DNA of 64,000 nucleotides from Psychroserpens luteolus (GTDB lineage Bacteria; Bacteroidota; Bacteroidia; Flavobacteriales; Flavobacteriaceae): assembly GCF_021032705.1 (NCBI RefSeq), contig NZ_JAHVXI010000008.1, forward strand, positions 1 to 64,000, written 5' to 3'. Each line of letters begins with the position of its first letter. Positions within the stretch are counted from its first letter, which is position 1. This document shows, in pieces, positions 35,628 through 37,545 of this stretch. A model generated the notes under the pieces. It was given only the letters and a program-made list of their open reading frames with translations, was not told where the DNA came from and did no database searches. Made by a program: the position numbers and the translations under genes.

Positions 35628-36041
35628 TTAAGACTGGTTATACAAATAACTTTGAAGAATAATCGTCGCGCTAATTTCATCAACCAAGGCCTTATCTTGA
35701 CGTTGCTTTTTTTTGAGTCCACTATCAATCATTGTTTGAAATGCCATCTTAGAGGTAAATCGCTCATCTACACGCTTAACTGGTAAATGAGGTATTTCTT
35801 TTGTAAGTGTCTCTAAAAATTTTGCTATAAAAACCTCACTTTCCGAAGCTTCAAAATTCATTTGCTTAGGTTCTCCTACAATTATCAACTCAACATTCTC
35901 TTTAGATATATAAGTCTTTAAAAATGGAATTAATGCTTTAGTCTCTACAGTTGTAAGACCAGAAGCTATAATTTGCAACTCATCTGTAACTGCTATTCCT
36001 GTTCGTTTTGTTCCGTAATCTAAAGCTAAAATTCTCGCCAT
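35628..36041 (-). CDS. ruvX: RuvX/YqgF nuclease-family protein
   Basis: The 137-residue protein has the RNase H-like core: LALDYGTKRTGIAV (catalytic D8), VGEPK, VDERFTS and a late aspartate near DEISATIILQ. The family acts as a putative Holliday junction resolvase and in 16S rRNA processing. It starts the ruvX-def-DUF5606 run. Its promoter (36046-36075) places transcription almost on the ATG. Confidence 0.93.
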   Translation of the reverse strand: MARILALDYGTKRTGIAVTDELQIIASGLTTVETKALIPFLKTYISKENVELIIVGEPKQMNFEASESEVFIAKFLETLTKEIPHLPVKRVDERFTSKMAFQTMIDSGLKKKQRQDKALVDEISATIILQSYLYNQS

Positions 36042-36075: not shown

Positions 36076-36087
36076 TCTTAATGCCAT

Positions 36088-36185
36088 AAAAAAACTCTTC
36101 TTTATAAATCAAAGAAGAGTTTTAAAATAATCAACTATTAATAAATCCATGAAACTATTCACCCTCTACCTTAAACAGTTCATGT
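36088..36185 (-). ncRNA. Candidate small RNA, cassette 4
   Basis: Box GTGACT (36217-36222) and GTGTCTTAAT (36193-36202) are 14 bases apart. The body has an atgaact/agtttcat stem with a G-rich loop (GTAGAGGGTG) instead of the C-rich loops of the others, then TTAATAGTTGA. It ends in a 13-bp hairpin (36091-36123) with a T7 tract. It stops just before the ruvX promoter. Confidence 0.43.
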
Positions 36186-36231
36186 TTATATAATTAAGAC
36201 ACACCTATTTAAAAAAAGTCACACACCTCTA

Positions 36232-36326
36232 TAAAAAAACCTTTCTTATGTTTAAGAAAGGTTTTTAGTAGCTATTAGTTAGATAGGGTATAGATTAGGG
36301 ATTATCTATAGTTTTTTCATAAAATT
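36232..36326 (-). ncRNA. Candidate small RNA, cassette 3
   Basis: The downstream -10-like part is only partly kept (GTGATTTGAT, 36334-36343) and GTGACC is absent. The body has a 7-bp tatagat/atctata stem with loop AATCCCTA, then CTATACCCTAT and CTAATAGCTA. It ends in a 14-bp hairpin (36235-36266). Cassettes 2 and 3 share clear similarity over their last 50 bases. Confidence 0.38.
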
Positions 36327-36359
36327 CCACTTCATCAAATCACAACTCTAACGTTTCGC

Positions 36360-36450
36360 ATAAAAAACCTTTCTTGGGGCGAAGAAAGGTTTTTAGTCTT
36401 GCTATTATATTAAAAGGGTATATAGGGCTATTGCTATTATTAACTCAAAA
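36360..36450 (-). ncRNA. Candidate small RNA, cassette 2
   Basis: Box GTGACC (36481-36486) and GTGTCTAAAT (36457-36466) are again 14 bases apart. The body contains CCCTATATACCC and ATAATAGC. It ends in a 13-bp hairpin with arm aaaaacctttctt (36363-36394), nearly the same stem as in cassette 3. Confidence 0.45.
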
Positions 36451-36494
36451 CCAATTATTTAGACACATCATTTTTTAATAGGTCACATGATTTC

Positions 36495-36610
36495 AAAAAA
36501 AATAGAAAACTCTCCTAAGGGAGAAGGAGAGTTTTCACAAAAATTAGCTATTAATTATTAAAATGTCTAGGCATTAGTTTTAGGGAAAATGCCCGACTAA
36601 TAATAATTCA
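36495..36610 (-). ncRNA. Candidate small RNA, cassette 1
   Basis: The upstream box is GTGACC (36640-36645) and GTGTCTTAAT (36616-36625), 14 bases apart. The body holds a ggcatt/aatgcc stem with a loop containing CCCTA, then TTAATAGCTA. It ends in a 12-bp hairpin (36505-36536) followed by a T-rich stretch. The length would be about 110 bases. Confidence 0.45.
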
Positions 36611-36697
36611 CATTAATTAAGACACAACACTTTTTAAAAGGTCACATATATTTTATTTTTTTATTAATTCAGAATTTATTCTAATCAATTATACCAT

Positions 36698-36705
36698 TAT
36701 CTTTG
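36698..36705 (+). promoter_or_regulatory. -7 box of dapD
   Basis: TATCTTTG matches TAnnTTTG, with ATG 24 bases downstream. The -33 region is weak (TTTA about 17 bases upstream). Confidence 0.5.
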
Positions 36706-36729
36706 TGCAAATAGCAGATAAATTTCAAT

Positions 36730-37545
36730 ATGAAACAACTACAGGATACTATAGAAAAAGCTTGGGATGATCGTTCATTATTGACTAGTGATGATACGAT
36801 TAAAAGTATACGACAGGTCATTAACTTATTAGATGAAGGAACGCTTAGAGTTGCCGAGCCCACTCCAAATGGATGGCAAGTAAATGAATGGGTAAAAAAA
36901 GCAGTTGTGCTTTATTTTCCAATTCAGAAAATGGAAACACTTGAAGCTGGAATTTTTGAATACCATGATAAAATCCCTTTAAAACGTGATTATGAAAAGA
37001 AAGGTATTCGTGTTGTCCCCAATGCAGTGGCACGTCATGGTGCTTATATTTCCCCAGGAACTATTTTAATGCCTAGTTATGTAAATATTGGTGCTTATGT
37101 TGATGAAGGCACTATGGTAGATACTTGGGCAACAGTTGGTAGTTGTGCTCAAATAGGAAAAAATGTACACTTATCTGGTGGCGTTGGTATTGGTGGTGTA
37201 TTAGAACCATTGCAAGCAGCACCTGTAATTATAGAAGATGGTGCCTTTATTGGCTCGCGTTGTATTGTGGTTGAAGGCGTTCGTGTTGAGAAAGAAGCTG
37301 TTTTAGGTGCTAATGTTGTGCTAACCATGAGCACTAAAATTATTGATGTTACTGGAGATACACCAGTAGAAATGAAAGGTGTTGTTCCAGAACGCTCTGT
37401 GGTTATACCTGGCAGTTATACAAAAACGTTTTCGGCAGGAAATTACAATGTACCATGTGCATTAATTATTGGAAAACGTAAAGAAAGCACCAACAAAAAA
37501 ACATCGCTTAATGATGCATTACGTGAATACGATGTTGCTGTGTAA
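36730..37545 (+). CDS. dapD: Tetrahydrodipicolinate N-succinyltransferase
   Basis: The 271-residue protein has a helical N-terminus and a left-handed beta-helix of hexapeptide repeats (NIGAYVDEGTMVDTWATVGS, SGGVGIGGVLEP, VIIEDGAFIGSRCIVVEGV). It transfers succinyl from succinyl-CoA to tetrahydrodipicolinate on the route to diaminopimelate and lysine. Length is typical. It is followed 14 bases later by a lipoprotein gene. Confidence 0.96.
   Translation: MKQLQDTIEKAWDDRSLLTSDDTIKSIRQVINLLDEGTLRVAEPTPNGWQVNEWVKKAVVLYFPIQKMETLEAGIFEYHDKIPLKRDYEKKGIRVVPNAVARHGAYISPGTILMPSYVNIGAYVDEGTMVDTWATVGSCAQIGKNVHLSGGVGIGGVLEPLQAAPVIIEDGAFIGSRCIVVEGVRVEKEAVLGANVVLTMSTKIIDVTGDTPVEMKGVVPERSVVIPGSYTKTFSAGNYNVPCALIIGKRKESTNKKTSLNDALREYDVAV

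Follow-up and report, generated by a model that had tools for sequence, protein, structure and literature searches.

What occupies the 688 bases between ruvX on the minus strand and dapD on the plus strand of Psychroserpens luteolus, a gap within which no open reading frame (ORF) of 60 amino acids (aa) is wholly contained? The locus lies in the window analysed here, by which we mean the whole stretch of 64,000 nucleotides (nt). A first-pass annotation, made from the letters of the DNA, had described the gap as free of genes, as the ORF count bears out, and had read it as four tandem, terminator-ended cassettes of a small RNA (sRNA) family. That reading turns out to be mostly right, although it had missed an extracytoplasmic function (ECF)-type promoter and the apparently autoregulated sigma factor that goes with it. 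Judging from sequence comparison, we consider it likely that the gap holds a tandem sRNA array, composed of units A, B, a boxless B-like copy and C, which would serve an autoregulated ECF regulon for envelope or osmotic stress as its sRNA arm. Four features argue for a tandem sRNA array: the promoter-to-terminator layout is repeated, the copy number varies between genomes, the stems covary, and loops and linkers are near-invariant.

The minus strand of the gap carries four hairpins, at 36536-36505, 36394-36363, 36266-36235 and 36123-36091, each with at least 11 uninterrupted pairs and a T-rich tail; in 1,000 dinucleotide-shuffled versions of the gap, such hairpins numbered 0.004 on average and one at most. 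Hairpins with T tracts had been predicted here at intervals of about 125-145 bases, and the measured spacing is 142, 128 and 143. The finer details of that prediction were likewise recovered, namely, ahead of the hairpin, TTAATAG, which is exact in units 1 and 4 and appears as ATAATAG in unit 2 and CTAATAG in unit 3, and the loops, which contain CCCTA in units 1-3 and the G-rich GGTAGAGGG in unit 4. On the plus strand of the gap, three hairpins of this kind score as well, because the stems are A/T-rich and symmetrical, and a standard terminator scan of the minus strand returned the first hairpin and its sub-hairpin only, probably because the T tracts of the others were absorbed into the stem.

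The upstream box that three of the units had been said to share resolves into three copies of GTGAC-N15-GTGTCT, which looks like an ECF-type promoter with GTGAC as the -35 and GTGTCT as the -10 element, and three hairpins begin 92-109 bases past the start of the box upstream of them. All features of the array lie on the minus strand. Box 1 (36616-36645, an exact match) precedes predicted sRNA A of about 115 nt (36497-36612; fold z -6.4), for which covariation was found (see below) and in which a base stem is followed by a hairpin with the C-rich loop TTTTCCCTAAAA, the near-invariant linker TTTAATAATTAATAGCTAATTTTT and the terminator hairpin at 36536-36505. Box 2 (36457-36486, a motif match) precedes predicted sRNA B of about 97 nt (36357-36453; fold z -2.2), which is marked by the core GCCCTATATACCC and ends in the terminator at 36394-36363. 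Box 3 (36193-36222, a motif match) precedes predicted sRNA C of about 105 nt (36085-36189; fold z -3.7), in which a covarying hairpin with the G-rich loop AAGGTAGAGGGT, the linker ATTAATAGTTGATTATTTT and the terminator at 36123-36091 follow one another, and on which covariance model R1 was built; the 5' ends of all three RNAs are inferred. The remaining unit 3 (36231-36320, extent uncertain; terminator 36266-36235; fold z -4.0) has no box and for this reason looks like a decaying duplicate of unit 2, so that of the four cassettes first proposed the four hairpins stand, three of them with a box, but not the notion of four equal cassettes. This copy is kept in G020, the nearest relative, and survives as a decayed trace in G021. 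Together with their upstream parts, the four units show 61% mean column identity. The effector loops of units 1 and 4 differ, and A and C have their layout and linker in common (ATTAATAGCTAATT and ATTAATAGTTGATT), so that the array looks like a set of old tandem duplicates that diverged in the loop.

The 3.84-Mb genome of P. luteolus contains 8 exact copies of the strict form of the box, GTGAC-spacer-GTGTCTDAWT, and none of the pattern run backwards; all 8 have a 15-base spacer, though 13-19 bases were permitted. Across 23 genomes of the genus we counted 83 matches, spread over 20 genomes, versus one for the reversed control, and a 16-base spacer gave 3 matches versus one. Relaxing the pattern to at most three mismatches brought 15 further places versus 22 in the control; since loose matches show no excess, strict sites alone are informative genome-wide. 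Within the gap itself, where up to two mismatches were accepted, 52 boxes lie on the minus strand and none on the other in 22 of the 23 genus genomes (G015, whose array is split, was left out of this count).

One of the boxes in the P. luteolus genome stands directly upstream of a gene for an ECF sigma factor (G000:C22, L003; Pfam Sigma70_r2 and r4), and comparison between genomes ties the motif to this protein. An orthologue is found in 20 of the 23 genus genomes, G002, G007 and G022 being without one at E <= 1e-30, and the strict box is present in 20/20 sigma-bearing versus 0/3 sigma-lacking genomes (Fisher p 5.6e-4). In all 20 orthologues the box lies 56-61 bases upstream of the sigma start (16 exact, 4 with one mismatch), and the sigma factor is therefore probably autoregulated; no box was found upstream of a 46%-identical sigma paralogue in G018. 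Sampling of 149 genomes of the family yielded a sigma match at E <= 1e-50 in 59. Outside the genus, we chose the 28 best-matching of 57 sigma-bearing genomes at that threshold and 15 sigma-lacking ones from 20 listed (out of 90 without a match) after dropping the five smallest or least complete, and found the strict box in 23/28 (47 matches) versus 0/15 (p 1e-7), with sigma homologues of 51-66% identity falling mostly outside this comparison. With up to two mismatches, a box occurs at most 200 bases upstream of 25 of these 28 orthologues, the three others being L192, L210 and L195, the last of which reads as a box with a 14-base spacer. A CmpX/MscS-like gene (Pfam MS_channel_1st_1) adjoins the sigma gene in every one of the 20 genus loci and the 28 from other genera, 48 of 48 in all.

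The same box could be read as the operator of a transcription factor, in which case the units would still be sRNAs, driven by the primary sigma factor. The two half sites are indeed alike, and the link to the sigma factor is a comparative one; yet the spacer is fixed at 15 bases, the motif tracks this sigma factor across genera, and the distance from box to start is alike among orthologues, amounting to 17-19 bases in five PAS kinases and 56-60 in six members of a family of 142-143-aa proteins. Autoregulation is moreover typical of ECF factors, and we regard an operator as unlikely.

The array can be followed through related genomes. Upstream of dapD, counted at up to two mismatches in the 23 genus genomes, there are three boxes in 12 genomes, two in 8, one in 1 and none in 2, and the cassettes adjoin dapD in 21. 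In G015 (L143, L298), the genome with a single box, the array is split over two contigs, with unit A near dapD, and a box with a C-type site upstream of ruvX. Among the 28 sigma-bearing genomes of other genera, six have box-plus-hairpin units in the ruvX–dapD gap, with two boxes in L262, L264 and L268, one in L263 and L265 and four in L289; the gap of L284 has one box and no hairpin near it. Of 80 named dapD loci, that of Winogradskyella thalassocola (L025) alone matches GTGAC-N13-18-GTGTC, and it is also the only one with a box and hairpin among the 21 examined closely. Covariance model R1 finds unit C in the same gap of five genomes of the family; in total it matches 6 of the 149, with one unit each, and the divergent C-like units of G155 and G103 go undetected. 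Its sixth match, in G135, is doubtful, since it follows an ORF and its 3.1-kb locus contains no ruvX, dapD or box (up to two mismatches); the stretch examined has no GAGGG loop, yet carries the linker-like ATTAATAGTTG.

These counts bear on the possibility, raised by the position of the array, that the hairpins are terminators or attenuators in the untranslated regions of ruvX or dapD and not separate genes. The ruvX gene (35628-36041, minus strand; Pfam RuvX) forms the downstream flank and dapD (36730-37545, plus strand; Pfam THDPS_N_2) the divergent upstream flank, and a minus-strand ORF of 60 aa (36681-36863) in the ORF list extends into the dapD end of the gap. Unit C does share the strand of ruvX and immediately precedes it, and even the split array of G015 keeps its C-type site and box just upstream of this gene. 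The number of boxes, on the other hand, ranges from none to three in the genus and reaches four elsewhere while ruvX and dapD stay, so that neither a fixed copy number nor conservation confined to untranslated regions, which the first-pass annotation would have taken as evidence against its proposal, is what the genomes display. Units A, B and C all run from a promoter box to a strong terminator, dapD is encoded on the opposite strand, and both genes are separated from the array by boxes of the TAnnTTTG type, a promoter consensus taken from a transcriptome report (PMC9723704): TAACTTTG at 36053-36046, past the last terminator, fits a primary-sigma promoter of ruvX's own, and TATCTTTG at 36698-36705 fits one for dapD. 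A generic sigma-70 promoter scan, which found 8 sites versus 13.9 expected, is uninformative in this phylum. We thus hold it to be very unlikely that the units are mere leader elements of the flanking genes.

For the alignments of the array, units were cut by requiring a hairpin 55-140 bases after the box, a rule that dropped the A units of L137 and L142 in the genus as well as the second unit of L152. For C, 21 of 26 rows (A5) entered the pair count, and for A 18 of 21 (A6), rows of other genera being left out; alignment A3, which includes divergent C units, misaligns the stem. Type A consists of the base stem AATTATTA/TAATAATT, a hairpin loop around TTTCCCTAAA, the linker, which is almost invariant over 18 genus rows, and the terminator. 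In type B the core is clear in most of 11 rows, and type C (21 rows) comprises a hairpin with the loop GTTTAAGGTAGAGGGT, a linker and a terminator, with loop and linker near-invariant. In the C hairpin 91.6% of cells are paired, compared with 39.8-44.4% in slid structures; two-sided changes occur in 6 of 12 pairs, a number equalled or exceeded in 2 of 500 shuffles, and none of 500 reached its covariation score. The stems of A are paired in 96.8% of cells (slid structures 28.5-52.4%), with two-sided changes in 4 of 6 pairs of the upper stem (19/500 shuffles as high) and a covariation score reached by 0/500, while further pair types in A were not above shuffles (496/500). The A base stem scarcely varies, and RNAalifold finds both A stems unaided. 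Near-invariant loops and linkers together with covarying stems thus point to selection on the RNA.

This conservation also speaks to whether the array is a dispersed, mobile-element-like repeat with hairpins of the REP or MITE type and no regulatory role. Its units are tandem, palindromic and AT-rich, and one copy is decaying, as might be expected of such an element; however, strict-match box clusters occur in the genus only beside dapD, R1 returns a single unit C in each genome that it matches, five of them at this very place and the sixth being the doubtful one in G135, and near-invariant loops and linkers with covarying stems do not fit a repeat, which we therefore judge highly improbable. 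That the units encode very short peptides, as the tiny ORFs of another box-led transcript family might suggest, is likewise highly improbable, given that an ATG opening a 5-codon frame is found in unit C of only some genomes (L139, for example, has ATA), that unit A in several genomes reads ATG and then directly TGA, and that sequence changes follow base pairing.

Several observations weigh against a sigma-dependent sRNA array and have to be set beside the evidence above. The strongest single fact against strict sigma dependence is that G002, which lacks the sigma factor, retains one box with an intact core and a C unit. The first unit of G002 (L151), for its part, has a degraded box with two mismatches, no terminator was found for it, and the linker, loop and T tract of the C unit carry changes seldom seen in the other rows, all of which fits decay following the loss of the sigma factor. 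The absences of the sigma factor in the genus amount to about two independent events, as the dapD tree, which is weakly supported over much of its extent, places the three genomes in two groups, and for this reason the comparison between genera weighs more. In 22 of the 28 sigma-bearing genomes of other genera the gap is without a box-plus-hairpin unit, so the regulon does not always include the array. No recognisable box precedes unit 3 in P. luteolus or unit B in G001. On the side of structure, RNAalifold did not find the C hairpin in a wide C alignment, and the minimum-energy fold of C from P. luteolus differs from the covarying hairpin, which does appear in the centroid. Sites complementary to 16 bases of the C loop, sought in 23 genomes with up to two mismatches, were not above a reversed-pattern control outside the array. 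A search of the P. luteolus genome for Hfq (PF17209), the usual chaperone of such RNAs, gave no match, and the same search was positive in 5 of 14 control genomes; the RNAs would thus use a different chaperone or none. Finally, an acetyltransferase and a glycosyltransferase among the genes that follow strict boxes do not fit an envelope theme.

As for the rest of the regulon, the genes that follow strict boxes in at least one genome include those for the sigma factor itself, OmpA-like proteins, an aquaporin (MIP), MscL, a LysM protein, an M48 peptidase, PAS histidine kinases, DUF2853, DUF1508 and DUF3078, and behind several other strict boxes there is no ORF of 60 aa. The channel, aquaporin and OmpA-type genes would suggest osmotic or envelope stress. 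Under the sRNA array model, membrane, cell-wall or osmotic stress would activate the ECF sigma factor, which would then transcribe its own gene, the channel, aquaporin and OmpA-type genes and the array. A, B and C would each be transcribed from their own promoter, read by this one sigma factor encoded elsewhere in the genome, and each would stop at its own terminator, giving transcripts of about 95-115 nt. The RNAs would probably pair in trans through exposed loops, UCCCUA in A, a C-rich loop in B and the G-rich GGUAGAGGG in C, and such pairing may tune down envelope mRNAs, by analogy with the sigma-E sRNAs of enterobacteria.

The opposite polarity of the C-rich units A and B and the G-rich C allows a further suggestion, which we make tentatively and think doubtful: the B core GCCCUAUAUACC could pair with the C loop GGUAGAGGGU, with B acting as a sponge or buffer of C. 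The predicted B–C duplex has a mean of -21.4 kcal/mol versus -14.5 kcal/mol with reversed C (11 genomes, p 0.002), and is no stronger than pairing with C of other genomes (p 0.17), which indicates no genome-specific fit. Loop pairing between A and C was rejected, as it was weaker than with reversed C. If true, B–C pairing would constitute a self-limiting RNA circuit inside an osmotic/envelope ECF regulon with no detectable Hfq.

Three further groups of box-led loci were seen. A family of 142-143-aa proteins (L002:1587-2018, with relatives in L114, L120, L291, L306 and L225) gave no Pfam or NCBIfam match in the one copy checked. Another short transcript (L293:1497 +, L299:1506 -, L254:2316 -, L231:1501 +), which gave no Rfam match, carries, once or twice, the sequence ATGAAACATAAAGTAA(A/G)TCC...GATCTCTAAAAAGAAACATTA or something close to it and, in 3 of 4 cases, a terminator with the stem ATATCGAAATACGA. 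In some genomes it can be read as a small basic peptide, and in others stop codons break the frame. At L119:1501 +, L123:1530 -, L302:1525 + and L308:1577 - the box is followed by a tiny hydrophobic frame (MKNTKRILSLIALLI... or similar; about 22-25 codons) and then by a gene that begins with MSAKFPEYKGLDLPKVAE and that we take to be ileS, and a similar frame occurs at L294:1545 +.

How does the array compare with known systems? A search of Rfam 15 with the window and 16 related loci gave nothing above gathering score, so that no Rfam family matches the array; the 25 matches obtained with a permissive filter were all below that score and were dismissed, PyrR at 25.7 bits versus 54 needed being at chance level. 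A literature search on this motif, sigma factor or RNA array found no report, in a coverage that excluded most subscription journals. In Proteobacteria it is well established that envelope-stress sigma factors have sRNA arms. A close parallel is offered by MicA and RybB of enterobacteria (PMC1804206), where an ECF-type stress sigma factor, sigma-E, drives short terminator-ended RNAs alongside envelope genes; the units described here similarly have a predicted ECF promoter directly upstream and end, as short units, at a putative intrinsic terminator, but they are tandem paralogues in one gap, belong to another phylum and have no Rfam match, and Hfq was not found. The nearest published work is the transcriptome of Flavobacterium psychrophilum, also of the Flavobacteriaceae, with 85 new RNAs, Rfp11 and Rfp18 among them. 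It places Rfp11, a putative regulatory RNA with structure, after an ECF-type promoter of another motif (SM6), and an ECF-driven sRNA candidate of this family is therefore already in print; the sections consulted describe no tandem array of Rfp RNAs, and the description of Rfp11 and Rfp18 sets them apart from the present units with their GTGAC-N15-GTGTCT box shared with channel, aquaporin and OmpA-type genes (PMC9723704). LhrC1-5 of Listeria (PMC4132741) are multicopy sRNAs with C-rich UCCC sites that are induced by cell-envelope stress. The present array is likewise multicopy and may respond to such stress, and UCCC occurs in most of its A units and some B terminator loops and is absent from the C loop. 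The LhrC copies are virtually identical and depend on the LisRK two-component system; here the box tracks an ECF sigma factor, the copies have diverged to the mean column identity given above and one unit has a G-rich loop. The gene set of the regulon recalls Pseudomonas SigX, likewise an ECF sigma factor encoded next to a cmpX-type channel gene, with a role in membrane stress such as is proposed here; OprF of Pseudomonas is a protein of the OmpA family, and no sRNA array is mentioned with SigX in the part of the source available (PMC7641640); the flavobacterial sigma factor reaches 106.6 bits on the SigX model (NCBIfam PRK09640), under the equivalog cut-off of 194. In flavobacteria, then, the one prior ECF-linked candidate that we found is a single RNA, Rfp11, with no tandem array or assigned sigma factor, while for the present locus the analysis predicts a promoter motif along with its cognate sigma factor, candidate protein targets and conserved RNA shapes. 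The motif can aid annotation of this regulon in other Flavobacteriaceae, and the array offers a defined set of RNAs for studying sRNA action where Hfq was not found and Shine-Dalgarno sequences are reported to be absent (PMC9723704). Seen against these systems, the ruvX–dapD array is most likely a familiar type of circuit, newly arranged, to which a sigma factor and a motif have been assigned.
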